Below the pieces are notes generated by a model. It worked only from the letters and a program-made list of their open reading frames with translations. It was not told where the DNA came from and ran no database searches. DNA of 64,000 bases, from positions 808,501 through 872,500 of the forward strand of contig NZ_FNOI01000001.1 of the NCBI RefSeq assembly GCF_900107015.1, given 5' to 3'. The stretch is from Litoreibacter albidus. GTDB taxonomy: Bacteria > Pseudomonadota > Alphaproteobacteria > Rhodobacterales > Rhodobacteraceae. Made by a program: the position numbers and the translations under genes. Numbering within the stretch: the first letter of the stretch is position 1; each line of letters begins with the position of its first letter. Positions 1,552-8,598 of this stretch are shown piece after piece.

Positions 1552-1566
1552 TGGCGGAGAGACAGG
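1552..1566. repeat. Left attachment repeat of the IME
   Basis: The 15 bases TGGCGGAGAGACAGG are identical to 8509-8523, where they form the 3' end of tRNA-Ser (complement CCTGTCTCTCCGCCA). The bases on either side differ between the two copies (G against C before, C against G after). This copy is not part of a tRNA gene, so it is the duplicated att core on the distal side of the element, 11 bp after gloB. Confidence 0.82.
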
Positions 1567-1858: not shown

Positions 1859-2995
1859 ATGACTATGAACATCACATCCCCAAAATCTAAATATAGCTCT
1901 GCACCTGCCGTAACCAAGGCTGGTGAGTTTCGCCCCCAACTTAACGCACCCTTTGTTGTGAAGAACCTTTTCAAACCCGGCGAGGTTTCGATGATTGCGG
2001 GCGCGCCCGGACTTGGCAAATCAACTATTTCGGCGGCGATAGCGGCACATGCTGCGCAGGGTCGTGACTTTGGCGGTTTGTCTGTCCGAAAAACGGTTGT
2101 AATCTACTACGCCGCCGAAGACGCTTACGGAGTTCTTTGCCGAGCACACCCGTATATGCGAGACCCAGCCTGTGCAAATGCACCGTTTTACGTGATCCAC
2201 GGCGCACCTAATCTGATGGACGCTGAAACACCGGAGAAGGTCGCAAGGTTCATCGAGGCAAAAAAGGCCGAATATGGTTGTGAGCAAGCGCTTGTAATCT
2301 TTGATACGCTGAATCGGTGTATAGGTGAGGCAGACGAGAACTCGTCGAGCTCGATGGGCACTGTTGTTGGGAACGCGACATTTATTGCTCAAACCACTCG
2401 CTCATCCGTCGTATTTGTTCATCACGTGGGGAACGGCAATCCCGACCGACCGCGGGGATCCTCGGCATTCCATGGAAATGTTGACTGCCTCTGCTTGATT
2501 TCGAAAACGTCTGTAACTGGGTCAGAAAAAGTCGTTTTGCTCAATGCAATCAAACAAAAGAACGCCCAAGAACTGGGCTCACTTCCATTCAAGTTGTCGG
2601 CGTTGAGAATCGGCGTGGATCATGAAGGCTGCGACGTTACCGTTCCGATGGCAATCCCGATGGAGCCAAAGGCATTTTCGAAAGCGTTGACACAGGCGAA
2701 AGTTGCCAATCACAACAAGCAACCTTCACAGGACACCATGGAACGCGTAGCTGACATCGAACGCGTGCTGGTGGAGCTCGCTAAGACTCATCCCGGCGGC
2801 TATTTTACTCAATCGGAGATAGCAGAGCGTTCGGGCTCGATCTTCAACAATGTTAGAGGTTCCGACAGTCTGCGGGTTGCGGTGAGACGGGCGCTGGTAG
2901 CTTTAGAGAAAGCTGGCAAGGCCGAACGCGGTACAAAGGGTTATCGGAGTTCTCTTCCGCCCTCTAACGCCAATGACCACGTGTTGAGCGATTAA
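1859..2995 (+). CDS. RepA-like RecA-fold ATPase of the IME
   Basis: 378 aa protein of the AAA_25/RepA family (hexameric replicative helicase-like ATPases of plasmids and integrative elements). Walker A GAPGLGKST lies at residues 48-56 and Walker B ALVIFD at 144-149. A HHVGNGNPDRPRGSSAF segment follows, as in RSF1010 RepA-type proteins. The C-terminal ~100 residues look like a winged-helix region. The start at 1859 (ATG, next in-frame ATG at 1865) follows an AT-rich leader without a strong Shine-Dalgarno. In an IME such a protein probably supports replication of the excised circle or copying during transfer. No separate primase or origin protein is visible nearby. Confidence 0.75.
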   Translation: MTMNITSPKSKYSSAPAVTKAGEFRPQLNAPFVVKNLFKPGEVSMIAGAPGLGKSTISAAIAAHAAQGRDFGGLSVRKTVVIYYAAEDAYGVLCRAHPYMRDPACANAPFYVIHGAPNLMDAETPEKVARFIEAKKAEYGCEQALVIFDTLNRCIGEADENSSSSMGTVVGNATFIAQTTRSSVVFVHHVGNGNPDRPRGSSAFHGNVDCLCLISKTSVTGSEKVVLLNAIKQKNAQELGSLPFKLSALRIGVDHEGCDVTVPMAIPMEPKAFSKALTQAKVANHNKQPSQDTMERVADIERVLVELAKTHPGGYFTQSEIAERSGSIFNNVRGSDSLRVAVRRALVALEKAGKAERGTKGYRSSLPPSNANDHVLSD

Positions 2996-3239
2996 CTCCC
3001 AAAGGCGGCGCGCCCTCGGCCCCGGTTCCAGAAGGCACGCTTCCTTCAAAAGTTCCTCCGACATTACCTCTCAGACCTTCCATTTCCTCTTCGAAATAAT
3101 CAAGCATAGAGGAGGCCAGCCGCCGGAGATCCGAAGAGGGGATCGCGGTGAAGTCATGATCTACCAATCTGAATCTGACGCAGTGTCTCGCCGCGTTAGC
3201 CAAAATGGTATCAAGCGATTTTTTTAGTTTTTCATCCAT
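2964..3239 (-). CDS. Small protein of unknown function in the IME
   Basis: 91 aa, not recognised. The N-terminal 60 residues look like a genuine globular alpha-helical protein (acidic and basic helices, DLRRLASSML pattern). The C-terminal 30 are Gly/Pro-rich and run antisense over the last codons of the repA-like gene. The start at 3239 is chosen because AGGGA lies about 10 nt upstream; an ATG three codons earlier (3248) sits too close to it. Its 5' end faces the predicted oriT and the relaxase gene, the position where oriT-binding accessory proteins or regulators of mobilization are often encoded. No function is assigned. Confidence 0.45.
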   Translation of the reverse strand: MDEKLKKSLDTILANAARHCVRFRLVDHDFTAIPSSDLRRLASSMLDYFEEEMEGLRGNVGGTFEGSVPSGTGAEGAPPLGVNRSTRGHWR

Positions 3240-3261
3240 TGCTTTCATTCCCTATGTTCAA

Positions 3262-3321: not shown

Positions 3322-4548
3322 ATGGCACTGTTTTCGTTTCGACATTCAGTAAAAACCTTTTCGCCAAAGTGCGAAACGAAAGGCCGAGTAGCGAAAGCAG
3401 GACAGACGGCAGCACATCTCCGCTACATAACTCGGCCTTCGGCGGCGAGAAAAGTCCTGCGAGCGAGATTTGGCCGCGATACGGATCAGCAACATGCAAG
3501 CTCTGCTGAGCAAAACGCGCTGAAACGAAAGGGAAGAGCGTGTGAGAGATTCATCATCGCATTACCCGTAGAAACCACGCCAGAGCAGCGTGCAGAACTT
3601 GCTTCCGCGTTCGCTGAAGTCCTGACACAGGGTAGGGCAAGCTATATCCTCGCTATCCACGACAAGGCCGGCAACGATGTCAAAAACCCCCACTTCCATC
3701 TCGTAGCATTCGACATTCACGAGAAAACCGGAACAAGGGGAAGACCACGCAGCGTTCTCGGGATGGCGCGAAAAAACGCAGTTGAGCGTTGGGCAAAATG
3801 CTGGGCCAGTATTCATAACCAAAAAATGCACGAATGGGGATTCGGACCTGAATGTGCCATAAGTCCTTTGTCATTCAAAAAGCAAGGCATCGACCGCATT
3901 CCACAGATACACGAAGGTCCAACTGGCCGCTCCATAATCAAACGCAAAAAGTATCCCACAGGCAAACCGGAGTGGGAGCGAATAGACGCTGGGCGAACCC
4001 GCGCAGAAGCTAACCGCCTTATCCGGGAAATAAACACACTCAGAGAGGAGAGCAAAGATGACCCACACAATCGACTGGGAAGCTCAGATCGAGGAAATCC
4101 GGCAGAAAGCGGCAGCCGCTGCCCGCCATTCAGAAAGGACAGTTGGGGGGCTGTCCCAGGCTCTTATGGAGACCGCGGCCCAGTCGAAAACGCTTGCCAG
4201 AATCAACATGGAGCAGCAGCAGACCAACAGCCGCCTTGGAACGCTGGAACGCGCTCTGAAATCAAATACAGCTCGCTTGGAAGCTCAACCAAGCAAGGAG
4301 ACAAGAGACCTTCCCACACGTCTTCTAACTGGCCTGACCGGCCTCCTGTTAGGCGGCCTCATATCAGGCGTTTATTTCTGGAACTAATCTTCCTGCGAGA
4401 CACGCTTAGGGTGCGGCTTGCGAATCTTAGCAGTCACCGCACCGCTTCGCTACAGCACCAAACAAAACAGCATTCGCCCCAAAACCTGACGCAAGAAAAA
4501 GCCAAAACTCGGGTTCGAAAAAAAGCGAGACATATTGAAACTCGCTGA
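3322..4548 (+). CDS. mobA: MobA/MobL-family relaxase (MOBQ)
   Basis: DNA-nicking and strand-transfer protein for mobilization, 408 aa. Visible: the N-terminal MobA/MobL start (MALFSFRHSVK), a candidate catalytic tyrosine at Y35 in LRYITRP, and the metal-binding His cluster H113 plus NPHFHL (H124, H126). The conserved block ERWAKCWASIHNQKM lies near 155-170. The relaxase domain covers about residues 1-240. From position 4058 the last ~163 codons overlap a second gene in another frame and encode a basic, low-complexity tail. The stop lies 3 nt from the convergent stop of the specificity-subunit gene. ATG at 3322 has only a weak purine-rich leader. Confidence 0.82.
   Translation: MALFSFRHSVKTFSPKCETKGRVAKAGQTAAHLRYITRPSAARKVLRARFGRDTDQQHASSAEQNALKRKGRACERFIIALPVETTPEQRAELASAFAEVLTQGRASYILAIHDKAGNDVKNPHFHLVAFDIHEKTGTRGRPRSVLGMARKNAVERWAKCWASIHNQKMHEWGFGPECAISPLSFKKQGIDRIPQIHEGPTGRSIIKRKKYPTGKPEWERIDAGRTRAEANRLIREINTLREESKDDPHNRLGSSDRGNPAESGSRCPPFRKDSWGAVPGSYGDRGPVENACQNQHGAAADQQPPWNAGTRSEIKYSSLGSSTKQGDKRPSHTSSNWPDRPPVRRPHIRRLFLELIFLRDTLRVRLANLSSHRTASLQHQTKQHSPQNLTQEKAKTRVRKKARHIETR
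4058..4387 (+). CDS. Nested mobilization accessory protein (MobB/MbeB-like)
   Basis: 109 aa protein read in a different frame wholly inside the relaxase gene. It has an excellent Shine-Dalgarno (GAGAGGAG about 8 nt before ATG). Residues 8-75 form a long polar helix or coiled coil rich in Gln, Ala and Arg; residues 88-107 form one hydrophobic membrane segment ending in the short tail YFWN. Known: mobB of RSF1010 and mbeB/mbeD of ColE1 are likewise nested in or overlapping the relaxase gene, and MobB has a membrane segment that helps present the relaxosome to the transfer channel. The functional link here rests on position and architecture; sequence similarity was not tested. Confidence 0.62.
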   Translation: MTHTIDWEAQIEEIRQKAAAAARHSERTVGGLSQALMETAAQSKTLARINMEQQQTNSRLGTLERALKSNTARLEAQPSKETRDLPTRLLTGLTGLLLGGLISGVYFWN

Positions 4549-4551
4549 AGC

Positions 4552-5037
4552 TTATACCTCAGAAAGAGCGGCTTCTTTGGACTTCAGAAGCGCCAGCATC
4601 ATTTCATTATTGCTTTCGATTTCGCCGCTTAGATCGATTGATGTCTCGCTGTGAGTGGGTGATAAGTCAAGATTTTCCAACCTCCTTTTGCTCGCTTTCC
4701 GTCCATACGAGAACCGCCATTTGTGCAGGACGTTAAACAATGCGGCGTAATAAACCAGTTCTGTATGGGTCAGCTCATCAAGCGCGGAAAGGATTGTACA
4801 GGAATCGCCACCATTTCCTTTTGGCAAAAACGATTTGGCGTGCACAGTTGCGTGACCAAGACCGGAAATGCAGATTGCAGGCCCTGAAAATACTTTATCA
4901 TCATCGAATGGCTCAACGTAATCTACGATCCCGTTGTTCAGCTCAGTATTGGTGACAAACGGGACCATACCACTTGTGTAGTCGTCTACGCTTTTCGAAC
5001 GGGCGACTGCTACCTTAAAAATATCACTGATTTTCAT
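4552..5037 (-). CDS. Half-length restriction-modification specificity subunit (single TRD)
   Basis: 161 aa protein resembling one target-recognition domain of type I/BcgI-type specificity subunits. It carries the family-like segments VPFVTNTELNNGI, ICISGLGHA and WRFSYGRKASKR, and ends in a short helical tail (about residues 125-161). Full specificity subunits have two such domains and usually exceed 340 aa, so this one may act as a homodimer or be truncated. The start at 5037 lies 1 nt after the stop of the fused nuclease-methylase gene, with AGGAG about 9 nt upstream, giving tight coupling. A longer frame to 5133 only overlaps the partner gene and lacks domain content. Confidence 0.72.
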   Translation of the reverse strand: MKISDIFKVAVARSKSVDDYTSGMVPFVTNTELNNGIVDYVEPFDDDKVFSGPAICISGLGHATVHAKSFLPKGNGGDSCTILSALDELTHTELVYYAALFNVLHKWRFSYGRKASKRRLENLDLSPTHSETSIDLSGEIESNNEMMLALLKSKEAALSEV

Positions 5038-5038
5038 T

Positions 5039-6907
5039 CTATTTCTCCTGCGCTTCCTGAAAAGATCTCCGCATTTCCTGAAACACGAGTTCCGAATAAA
5101 TCGCGCCCATTTCCGCCCTAATCTGATCGTCACCTAACTCTGGATGATCTAAGTAAAACTGAGGCACGATCTCCAAATGATCATCGTTCAAGTCAATGAC
5201 CTTCTCCTGAAGAATCCCAGGTGTCTCGACAACCATACCACTCCCAGAGAGAAACGACTTTATTTGGGGGGTTAGCTCATCGAGTTGCGACGCTCTACCA
5301 TGAGGCAGTCGCCGTTTTTTAAGCTTGAGGAAGCCATCATCACTTATCCGGGAAAAAAGAGTCTTTTGCGTAGTCGAGTGAGGCTGCCCCTTTTTTATCA
5401 CAACAATCAATGGCTCAACCGACGCCTGCGGGTAGAAAAGGTCATTAGGAAATGAAATCACTGCCATCACGGTGTTTCGTTCTAAGAGCCGTTTTCTCCA
5501 TGCGAGCTCTTTACCTCCAGAGTACATAACAGAAACTGGAAGAACCGCGAGAAGCAAGCCTTCGTCCACCATCTGGTTCAATGCATGGTCAACAAAAGTA
5601 TATTCTTGCTCGTCATCCCGTTTCAATGCGAATGGTGGGTTCATCAGGGTTTTCGAAACCGAAAGACGGTCAGCAGTTTCTTTGGTGTACTCGGCGCTAA
5701 CCTCACCATTCCTTATTTTTCTTGTTAAATGCAGAGATAAGCAATCATCATTGATAATATTGCTTTTCCCGTCACCCCGGAAGACCATATTGACGATTGC
5801 AAGCGATGCCACGTTTGCTTGTTGCTCGACACCAAATATCCGGTGCTTTTTGAACATCTCCACATCGCCCGGATATTCTTGGCGAATTTTATCATATGCA
5901 GCGACAAGAAATCCTCCGGTTCCGCAGGCGGGATCGTACACAAGGTCATCGGAGTTTATGTCCAGAATCTCAACTGAAAATTCAGTTATGTGACGAGGAG
6001 TCAGGACAATGCCAATGTCCTTTGCGCCATTGCCATATTTGAGAAAAACTTCATAAAACTTCCCCAGAAGATCGTGGCTGCCGTCCATGGCCGCCTTGAT
6101 ATTTATTTTTCTCAGCAGAAAGAAAACCTTCACGACCGCCGCTTTGTACTTTGCCTTAGCTGCATCTTCGTGAGGCAATCTAAGCTCAATATACTCAGCA
6201 AACTCTCTCTTTGAATGGTTTATCAAAACGTCTTCTGCTCTATTATTGATATCCTTAATAAATACATCTGGCGATGCATTGAAGTTTGGCAGTGTATCGG
6301 AGACCATAGCCAATAGAACTGAAGACATTACTGTGGCGCGCAGATCTTTGTTGATAGATGCTTTGTGAAGCTCCTCGTTGATTTGTTCGGCAATGCTTAA
6401 CAGCACAACCTCATCAGTTACCAAAGTGTTGAGGACGTTAGTTTGGTTATCGGCCAAATGAGTCGCCTGTGAGGGCGAGAGAAAGCCGGTTATTGGCTTT
6501 CCGTTATACTCAATGACTTTGACAGAGCCGTCAGGGAGGATCGCACCGGTTTTGACGATATATCCTTGCTCATCCGAACCAGCCACGCCAGTGGCTATTG
6601 AGGCGCGAATGAGCTTCGTTTTTGCGTTAATATCTCTGGCATACTGTACGGCTTCATTATAAGCGGCATCAATCTTATCGAGGCTACCTTTCGCTTCGAT
6701 TACCCAGTAGGCGTCTTCCCGAACTTTGACGACATACTCGGGTTTCTGCTTTCCGAGGCCAGCAGCGAGTTCAGGGTGATCCAAACACTCCTGTTGCGAA
6801 TAAAGTTGGCCAGCGGCATCTCTGTTCGGGTTTCTTACATTCCAACCAAAAGCCTTCAAATCATTCTTAATAAAAACGTACGATGAAAATTCAGAAGTTC
6901 TGGGCAT
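5039..6907 (-). CDS. Fused PD-(D/E)XK nuclease / N6-adenine methylase (BcgI-like RM subunit)
   Basis: 622 aa from the ATG at 6907, which has AGGA about 8 nt upstream; an ATG at 6931 extends the frame by 8 codons. Domains: an N-terminal HsdR-like nuclease region with PEYVVKV followed by YWVIEAKGS (an E-x-K pair, about residues 71/73), a helical linker, then an HsdM-type methylase with motif I DPACGTGG (about 325-332) and motif IV NPPF (423-426). Nuclease and methylase in one chain, with a separate specificity protein, is the layout of BcgI-type (type IIB) systems, whose A subunit has similar length. The gene is AT-rich compared with the flanking chromosome. Likely role: modification of self DNA and restriction of unmodified DNA. 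Confidence 0.78.
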   Translation of the reverse strand: MPRTSEFSSYVFIKNDLKAFGWNVRNPNRDAAGQLYSQQECLDHPELAAGLGKQKPEYVVKVREDAYWVIEAKGSLDKIDAAYNEAVQYARDINAKTKLIRASIATGVAGSDEQGYIVKTGAILPDGSVKVIEYNGKPITGFLSPSQATHLADNQTNVLNTLVTDEVVLLSIAEQINEELHKASINKDLRATVMSSVLLAMVSDTLPNFNASPDVFIKDINNRAEDVLINHSKREFAEYIELRLPHEDAAKAKYKAAVVKVFFLLRKINIKAAMDGSHDLLGKFYEVFLKYGNGAKDIGIVLTPRHITEFSVEILDINSDDLVYDPACGTGGFLVAAYDKIRQEYPGDVEMFKKHRIFGVEQQANVASLAIVNMVFRGDGKSNIINDDCLSLHLTRKIRNGEVSAEYTKETADRLSVSKTLMNPPFALKRDDEQEYTFVDHALNQMVDEGLLLAVLPVSVMYSGGKELAWRKRLLERNTVMAVISFPNDLFYPQASVEPLIVVIKKGQPHSTTQKTLFSRISDDGFLKLKKRRLPHGRASQLDELTPQIKSFLSGSGMVVETPGILQEKVIDLNDDHLEIVPQFYLDHPELGDDQIRAEMGAIYSELVFQEMRRSFQEAQEK

Positions 6908-7096
6908 AACTATCCTGCTCGGGTAAAACATTGTTTTTGATCACTTATCACTATTCTTTGGTGATGCGGCAAGTGCCAATGAAACATGGTTGAGGAGAAA
7001 GTTTCAAGCGCGTTAGGCGCCCCCCTCAGCTCCATCTTCAGGCTGATAGCGGCCCAGACCATAAGCCTCGCTGCGCATCCGTCTCGCCGAGGGGCA

Positions 7097-8383
7097 CTAA
7101 TCGAGACTTGCGAACATCTGGATCGTACGCCGACCCACCTCTGCTGCGCGGGTCTCAGGGTCTGCATAAAGCTCAAACTCACCCATAGCCCACATCCCCC
7201 ACTGCTCAAGCAACTTATGACGCTCGTGAAGCAGCTTGGCTCGGTTGTAGGCTTGGACTGTCTTCGAGCCAACAGCATGGGAGAGGACCATCTCCGCAAC
7301 GTCATCGGGAGCAGCCGTATCTTCTCGCGCCCACGTTCTAAATGCCGCCCGCATCCCATGAACAGTAACCCCCGGCACGTAGGTTTGAAGCAGCTTCCGC
7401 ATCGTATTGTCGGAGATTGGTTTCTTTGGATTGCTCGGCGATGAGAAGACAAGTGGGCTGCCATTGGTACGATGTATCTGCGCCGTGAGAAGCACTTCGC
7501 GTGCATGCATAGAGATCGGAACAATGAACTCGCTGCGTGTCTTCATCATTTCAGCAGGGATAGTCCATTCGGTGAGACCTGCGTCAAACTGATCCCAACG
7601 CGCGTGCCGCACCGATCCAGAGCGCAAAGCCGTAAGAATAGTGAACCGCAGCGCCAGTGCACCGACCACATTTTGCCGCGAAAGCCTTTTCATCAACTCT
7701 GGAAGATCGTGATAGTCCATTGCAGAGAAATGCTTTGCCTTTTGCCCTTGTGGTCTCATCGTACCCAGCATTCCTGCCGCTGGATTACCAGTAGTCCGAT
7801 AGCCACGGCCACATGCAAAATCGAAGACTACTGATATGCGTTGAAGCACGCGGCTGGCCGTTGGTGCCTTCGTCGTCCAAATGGGGTCAATGACCGCTTC
7901 GATATCATCCTGATTTATCTCCGAAACTGCCAAATCACCCAGAATCGGAAAAGCGTAGGTTTCAAGTGTCCGAATCCATTGCGCGATGTGCTTACCATTG
8001 TTCTTTCTGTCCTTGAACTTCCGCTCGTGAACGAGGCAGGCAATCTCTTTGAAAGTTATGACTTTACCTTCATCTTCGCGCGTCCGCACTTTCGGATTTC
8101 CTCCACTTCGAGCAATCCGACGTAGGTCGAGGGCCTTTTCTCGCGCTTCTGCTAACGTCACCAGATTTGCTGATCCAAGGCCAATATCGCGGCGGCGTCC
8201 GCGAACAACCGTCCGAAGCATCCAACGACGCGCCCCGGATAAATCAACCTTCAAATAAAGACCTCCGCCGTCCGCGTGTCTTCCAGGACCAGCTTTTCGC
8301 ACGAATGCGGCGTTAAGCTTCTTTTCAACGTGCGGACCTGACTTCACACGCCGCTTTGACTCAGGAAATGACGAACCGTTCAT
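7097..8383 (-). CDS. int: P4-type tyrosine integrase of the IME
   Basis: 428 aa site-specific recombinase. It has an N-terminal arm-binding domain of the DUF4102 type (about 20-100), a SAM-like core-binding domain (about 105-200), and a catalytic domain with R254 (TALRSG), H342-x-x-R345 (VHGMR), H369 (LSHAV) and nucleophile Y379 (QAYNRA). All catalytic residues are present, so the enzyme is probably active. The start (8383) is about 126 bp from the tRNA-Ser 3' end, the normal place for an integrase that uses this tRNA as attB. The C-terminal ~45 residues extend past the tyrosine, as is common in P4-type enzymes. Confidence 0.92.
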   Translation of the reverse strand: MNGSSFPESKRRVKSGPHVEKKLNAAFVRKAGPGRHADGGGLYLKVDLSGARRWMLRTVVRGRRRDIGLGSANLVTLAEAREKALDLRRIARSGGNPKVRTREDEGKVITFKEIACLVHERKFKDRKNNGKHIAQWIRTLETYAFPILGDLAVSEINQDDIEAVIDPIWTTKAPTASRVLQRISVVFDFACGRGYRTTGNPAAGMLGTMRPQGQKAKHFSAMDYHDLPELMKRLSRQNVVGALALRFTILTALRSGSVRHARWDQFDAGLTEWTIPAEMMKTRSEFIVPISMHAREVLLTAQIHRTNGSPLVFSSPSNPKKPISDNTMRKLLQTYVPGVTVHGMRAAFRTWAREDTAAPDDVAEMVLSHAVGSKTVQAYNRAKLLHERHKLLEQWGMWAMGEFELYADPETRAAEVGRRTIQMFASLD

Positions 8384-8508: not shown

Positions 8509-8523
8509 TGGCGGAGAGACAGG
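8509..8523. repeat. Right attachment repeat, within the tRNA-Ser 3' end
   Basis: The same 15 bases as 1552-1566. Here they supply the encoded CCA, the discriminator base and the acceptor-stem 3' strand of tRNA-Ser, so integration keeps the tRNA gene intact. Confidence 0.82.
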
Positions 8524-8598
8524 GATTCGAACCCTGGGAACCCTCTCGAGCTCAACGGTTTTCGAAACCGTCCCGTTCGACCACTCCGGCACCTCTCC
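8509..8598 (-). tRNA. tRNA-Ser (anticodon CGA), CCA encoded
   Basis: 90 nt including the encoded CCA. Acceptor strands GGAGAGG and TCTCTCC pair. The anticodon arm is ACGGT - TTCGAAA - ACCGT, giving anticodon CGA (codon UCG, serine). A long variable arm (about GAGCTCGAGAGGGTTC region) marks the class II serine type. The T arm CAGGGTTCGAATCCCTG is canonical. It is the integration target of the adjacent IME. Confidence 0.95.

Follow-up and report, generated by a model that had tools for sequence, protein, structure and literature searches.

A putative BcgI-like restriction-modification system with a dedicated half specificity subunit, carried on a candidate mobilisable element of Litoreibacter albidus

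How could a BcgI-like restriction-modification enzyme work with only half of the usual specificity subunit? This question is raised by a gene pair in a 64,000-nucleotide stretch of the L. albidus genome, the whole of which was analysed here and is called the window. A preliminary description, made from the letters of the DNA, had noted a large protein joining an E-x-K nuclease to an HsdM-type methylase in one chain like BcgI A, and a 161 aa single-TRD partner separated from it by a 1-nt gap. Below, RM denotes the large nuclease-methylase gene, S the small specificity gene, and L-numbers the compared loci. The gap was confirmed, as base 5038 alone lies between the stop codon of RM and the start codon of S. 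The features of the pair are as follows.

5039..6907, minus strand: RM gene, 622 aa from the ATG at 6907; nuclease, HsdM-type N6-adenine methylase and C-terminal helix
Within RM, N-terminal: predicted PD-(D/E)xK nuclease part, with P56-E57 and E71-x-K73 (E71-A-K73)
Within RM: methylase motifs DPACGTGGF at residues 325-333 and NPPF at residues 423-426
5038, minus strand: spacer of one base, from the RM stop codon to the S start codon
4552..5037, minus strand: S gene, 161 aa; one TRD and one C-terminal helix (residues 137-159)

An alternative in-frame ATG at 6931 would extend RM to 630 aa; the start residue of the homologue in L010 aligned with the ATG at 6907. In Pfam, residues 277-528 of RM matched N6_Mtase (PF02384) with an E-value of 1e-38, and all 66 members of the RM family alignment matched PADLOC models of Type IIG restriction enzyme-methyltransferases. 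Over 92 aligned rows including the window, the nuclease residues were kept almost without exception (P56 in 91, E/D57 in 92, E71 in 91 and K73 in 92), which argues for selection on cleavage. The AlphaFold2 model of RM (pLDDT 89.1) contained strands 58-61 and 66-73, helix 76-96 and strand 101-111 in its N-terminal part, and ended in helix 593-621. The order strand, strand, helix, strand is that expected around a PD-(D/E)xK site. In a Foldseek search with the whole model, the top matches included Type I M subunits and the Type IIG enzymes BpuSI and DrdV; BsaXI (8w2q_B) was matched with an E-value of 2.4e-16 over 629 alignment columns at a TMq of 0.43. The RM family profile matched the Type I R subunit 3h1t_A at positions 7-90 (E 9.7e-5), and 10 of the 66 family members matched Pfam HSDR_N (best 6.3e-7), the window RM not being among them. 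A search of the PDB with the N-terminal 200 aa of the window RM alone gave no solved relative (best E 0.92). The preliminary description had made the nuclease depend on alignment with PD-(D/E)xK enzymes; this held for the family profile, the motif and the fold, but not for the window sequence by itself. On these three lines of evidence, RM is predicted to be a PD-(D/E)xK-type nuclease and a gamma-class N6-adenine methylase in a single chain, in line with the BcgI A-like chain first described.

The S protein gave a single match to Methylase_S (PF01420) in Pfam, at 24.6 bits against a cut-off of 22. Its model (pLDDT 91.5) consisted of a TRD followed by one long helix, residues 137-159. Foldseek matched this model to the HsdS structures 1yf2, 5ybb, 3okg and 1ydx (E 3.6e-5 to 2.3e-4) and to the BsaXI S chain 8w0p_C (E 1.4e-3), with a TMt of 0.24-0.29 on these targets of 374-475 residues; a PDB search with the S sequence alone returned an unrelated best match at E 0.9. 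Judging from the model and the Foldseek matches, S corresponds to one TRD joined to a single conserved-region helix and so to one half of the TRD1-CR1-TRD2-CR2 order of an ordinary S subunit. A TRD profile built here and run over the six frames of the window detected this TRD and no other, in agreement with the single-TRD protein originally proposed. In the L. albidus genome (99.9% complete), the only Methylase_S hit was this S and the only hit to the N6_Mtase family was this RM. BcgI and other two-gene Type IIB systems likewise have a nuclease and a gamma N6-adenine methylase in one chain and a separate S (PMC3874165), and in the window, too, S is encoded beside RM. Their S, in contrast, has two TRDs and serves RM in a ratio of 2 RM to 1 S (PMC3874165), whereas the window S has one TRD, and the expected stoichiometry would be 2:2.

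We then compared 119 relatives of RM, comprising 80 loci of GTDB genomes (the best 80 of at least 541 confirmed matches) and 39 viral contigs, in which TRDs were counted with the profile made here; some rows are near-copies, e.g. L113/L114, L115-L117 and L063/L064. A single TRD fused to RM was found in 61 (57, plus 4 with a broken RM frame) and a separate two-TRD S in 39 (36, plus 2 with a broken RM frame and L027, whose S lies in two frames). The counting rule assigned a separate one-TRD S to 14, of which 10 were accepted (L010-L014, L041, L092, L093, L112 and L125); the remaining 9 relatives are the 4 set aside and 5 without an assigned layout. Those set aside were L026 and L055, in which an extended RM frame is immediately followed or overlapped by a TRD in another frame and which are probably frameshifted fused genes; L042, cut by a contig end; and L045, with no clear S start and a contig ending 158 nt after S. 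L027 was also rejected as a half-S locus, as it proved to hold a full two-TRD S broken into two frames with one TRD in each. The split S at L027:7824-8851 may be a frameshift, possibly a switch as in HpyUM032XIII, or an assembly error. No chain with RM and two TRDs was seen among the 119 relatives, the 5 without an assigned layout counting neither way. The three layouts observed share one RM scaffold, and all permit one TRD per RM. AloI-type enzymes have one RM and two TRDs per chain (PMC3874165), so this rule is not universal.

The relatives that best matched the window RM all had a half S. The five best matches were L010 (Thioclava MAG, RM identity 92%), L011 (Thalassospira, 69%), L012 (Bacteroidetes MAG, 62%), L013 (Lamprocystis, 60%) and L014 (Provencibacterium MAG, 59%), spanning Alpha- and Gammaproteobacteria, Bacteroidota and Bacillota, and in 5/5 a separate half S of 159-168 aa was called by script. 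Recurrence of the adjacent pair across several phyla indicates more than chance. As judged by eye, the pair lies between apparently chromosomal genes in L011 and L014, between murE-like and murF-like genes with short gaps at positions 420-5587 of L041 (Rickettsia endosymbiont MAG), and in phage-like surroundings in L092, L093 and L112; the gene next to the pair in L112 resembles an integrase, also by eye. L112 and L125 have a one-TRD S in viral loci amid mostly two-TRD relatives (L106-L127). The system is rare: the window's genome alone matched among 390 genomes in the order-level search at E 1e-60 or better and among 398 in the phylum-level search at 1e-90, and 9 of 385 genomes, the window's included, matched in the class-level search at 1e-30. 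When viral contigs were searched with the window RM as a single sequence, 12 pattern matches and no relatives were obtained. Among plasmids, 2478 records matched RM, none over more than 80% of the query, and one record matched S (Lactobacillus iners, 30.8%).

Two trees of RM were built, one of 92 rows, in which L027 was still labelled half-S, and one of 54 rows with that label corrected. The former omits L114-L128 and 17 loci whose RM frames were incomplete or broken (some as near-copies); the latter further omits a 29-row fused clade, L106, L112, L111, L006, the long branches L067, L069 and L076, and the duplicates L064 and L003. The half-S locus L125 is in neither. The window and L010-L014 formed a supported group in both (SH-aLRT 100 in the 92-row tree and 99 in the 54-row tree). 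The other half-S rows stood apart from it: L041 with L093, L092, and, in the 92-row tree only, L112. The 54-row tree requires 14 changes among the three layouts and, for the half-S label, 3; forcing the nine half-S rows together was rejected (p-AU 1e-58). Since these are quick trees without a known root, they do not distinguish gain from loss of a layout. The TRDs were compared in an alignment of 74 of the 122 found in the relatives. Outside the window's group, identities of 35-45% to its TRD were observed for the first TRD of the two-TRD S genes of L043, L036, L015, L091, L027, L025 and L021, for the fused L062 and L040, and for the half-S L093 and L041. TRDs akin to that of the window are therefore found in two-TRD, fused and half-S loci, and TRD modules occur across layouts.

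Here, we propose that the two genes form a Type IIB/IIG (BcgI-like) system in which a dedicated gene encodes a half S, and which would assemble as (RM)2(S)2, methylate an interrupted palindrome and probably cut around it (probability about 0.8). Starting from the observed anatomy, domains, catalytic residues and single TRD, we infer the 2:2 assembly, the palindrome and the cutting pattern as follows. One RM would need one TRD, which fused relatives supply in cis, and a two-TRD S would serve two RMs. In the window system, two RM chains and two S chains would assemble as (RM)2(S)2, the S chains being packed against each other through their C-terminal helices, probably antiparallel. These helices would probably form a four-helix bundle together with those that end the RM chains; the helical tail of a methylase has been reported in such a bundle with CR1 and CR2 (PMC11997821), and the modelled window RM resembles it in ending in helix 593-621. 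Pairing of the S chains would set two identical TRDs in inverted orientation, so the site would consist of a short half-site and its reverse complement, separated by about 5-8 unspecified bases. One adenine would be methylated per half-site, and unmethylated DNA would be cut at fixed distances, probably on both sides.

By analogy, a homodimeric assembly on an interrupted palindrome is well supported, the analogues being HpyUM032XIII, HaeIV, M.AhdI and EcoR124I-NT. The strongest support for the assembly and the palindrome comes from HpyUM032XIII, a BcgI-like Type IIG system of Helicobacter pylori UM032 that, like the window, has an RM fusion and a one-TRD S: RM with the half S1 methylates CYAN7TRG, S2 is dispensable, and S1 joined to S2 gives CYAN7TTC (PMC4450513). 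Its half S is a piece of a full S gene frameshifted in a G tract, with the second half adjacent (PMC4450513); the window S, unlike it, has a dedicated gene, and no second half was found for it in six frames of the window or by Methylase_S, which hit the genome once. HaeIV, a single-chain Type IIG enzyme recognising GAY N5 RTC, is thought to act as a homodimer (PMC3874165). It would share with the window system one TRD per RM and a symmetric bipartite site; its TRD lies in the RM chain, as in 61/119 relatives, whereas that of the window is set apart by a stop codon and the 1-nt gap. M.AhdI, a "Type 1 1/2" or IIH methyltransferase of 2M + 2S with the site GAC N5 GTC (PMC3874165), similarly uses a separate single-TRD S with a gamma methylase, but the AhdI endonuclease is a separate Type IIP protein with no nuclease in the methylase chain, whereas the window nuclease lies within the RM chain. 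EcoR124I-NT is an engineered counterpart (PMC2877798), and the one-TRD HsdS JHP0785 has been tied to RTAYN5RTAY (PMC3936762). In H. pylori, one-TRD S alleles of Type I systems have been called aberrant, and a figure reference extends this to a Type IIG S gene (PMC3077401). BplI is a Type IIB enzyme of two polypeptides in a 1:1 ratio that recognises GAG N5 CTC (PMC1892151, Table 1). It resembles the window system in type, in its two polypeptides and in the palindromic site predicted here, and with a palindrome and 1:1 subunits it might be of the same kind.

Alternatively, one RM and one S could act as a monomeric Type IIG enzyme divided over two chains, with a short asymmetric site, methylation of one strand and a cut on one side. 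We consider this very unlikely. Monomeric one-TRD Type IIG enzymes are common in the literature (PMC3874165), but a single TRD of the present kind reads just a short half-site, and if one strand alone were methylated, DNA would lose its protection on replication unless a second methylase acted, in a genome with the one N6_Mtase-family hit noted above. Moreover, the sites obtained with HpyUM032XIII and the one-TRD HsdS cases were palindromes with methylation on both strands (PMC4450513, PMC3936762).

It might also be supposed that S is a degenerate remnant of a two-TRD S whose second half disappeared at this locus, so that the system is failing or inactive, and we judge this still less likely. 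In favour of a remnant, a two-TRD S is common in the relatives (39/119), the TRD class of the window is the first TRD in the seven two-TRD S genes listed above, and L027 exemplifies a full S broken by a frameshift. The preliminary description had pointed to full-length S genes in homologues as the sign of truncation; since the five best-matching relatives instead all carry a separate single-TRD S, the window S is not a recent truncation. No second TRD was detected in the window or in the L010-L014 stretches, whichever frame was read; the L013 contig ends 161 nt after S. Between the window and L010, S was less conserved than RM (85% against 94%), which counts somewhat against the main proposal; dN was 0.047 and dS 2.4 for RM, and dN was 0.088 for S, whose 109.5 synonymous sites showed 84.8 differences, a saturation that gives no dS. 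Both genes are thus under strong purifying selection in this comparison, which stands against a remnant. Because relatives in several phyla share the half-S layout, the pair is probably a working enzyme and not a broken gene. Least likely of all is that the pair is a methyltransferase only, with an inactive nuclease, kept for maintenance of the element or for regulation: identity between the window and L010 is lower in the nuclease part (89%) than in the methylase part (96%) and cleavage cannot be demonstrated from sequence, but P56, E/D57, E71 and K73 are kept in 91-92 of the 92 rows.

RM and S lie between an integrase gene and a relaxase gene, beside a tRNA-Ser gene, together with the following features.

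7097..8383, minus strand: tyrosine integrase, 428 aa; Pfam Phage_integrase, Phage_int_M and Arm-DNA-bind_3
3322..4548, plus strand: MobA/MobL relaxase, 408-aa frame; Pfam MobA_MobL 1.6e-16; its 3' part overlaps another conserved frame
1859..2995, plus strand: AAA_25 ATPase, 378 aa; Pfam AAA_25 2.3e-23
8509..8598, minus strand: tRNA-Ser (cga), found by ARAGORN; attachment probably at its 3' end
8509..8523: copy of an exact 15-nt direct repeat, within tRNA-Ser; putative near end of the element
1552..1566: second copy of this repeat, identical to the 3' end of tRNA-Ser; putative far end of the element

The repeat occurs in the window as two plus-strand copies only, with none on the minus strand. 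The integrase, the relaxase, the tRNA-Ser and the repeat bear out the proposal that the pair travels on an integrative mobilisable element, and suggest one of about 7 kb at tRNA-Ser, its extent being taken from the repeat. L010 has the same element backbone, with identities of 83% for the integrase, 69% for the relaxase (residues 1-340) and 57% for the part of the AAA protein at residues 264-363. The exact 15-nt repeat was absent from the L010 stretch examined and no empty site was found, so the proposed ends are placed by the window repeat alone. Five same-genus genomes (L132-L136) retain the tRNA-Ser; about 790 nt of the window's right side is present in L132 and L133, and in pieces in L136, and neither the window's left side nor the element interior was found in these five stretches. 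A tRNA-Ser without the window's left side would fit an integration hot spot. Two small frames were also seen in the element. A 109-aa frame (4058-4387, plus strand) with a C-terminal hydrophobic stretch lies inside the relaxase gene, in its 3' part, and is conserved in L010 (68% over residues 1-79 and 62% over 78-109); we presume a likeness to the mobilisation genes that small plasmids carry nested in this way. A 94-aa frame (2964-3248, minus strand), 57% identical in L010 over 80 residues, lies between the AAA gene and the relaxase and possibly encodes a small mobilisation or regulatory protein.

The pair had at first been called a possibly undescribed subtype. This has to be narrowed: a BcgI-like RM with a half S is already published as HpyUM032XIII, where the half came from a frameshift, and what is new here is a stable lineage with a dedicated half-S gene. 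Table 4 of PMC3874165 gives, as Type IIG layouts, RM with a two-TRD S, RM fused to one TRD and RM fused to two TRDs; that table has no row for RM with a one-TRD S, and the matching methylase table in the same source does include a one-TRD S form (M.AhdI). The literature searched, with REBASE outside its scope, held no report of a dedicated half-S Type IIB gene. We therefore lean towards the view that a stable, horizontally mobile (RM)2(S)2 class whose half S has its own gene supplies the layout that the published Type IIG list lacks, and that it may be one of three interchangeable solutions by which a single RM scaffold has repeatedly arrived at a ratio of 1 RM to 1 TRD. If this is true, one small gene sets both half-sites, and any change of its TRD would give a new palindrome still methylated on both strands. 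The half-S lineage, together with its fused and full-S relatives on one RM scaffold, would offer a natural series for the gain and loss of symmetry in Type I-like enzymes. Such a series could test whether assembly in the RM family follows a rule of one TRD per RM, and whether new palindromic specificities could be made by swapping one small gene.
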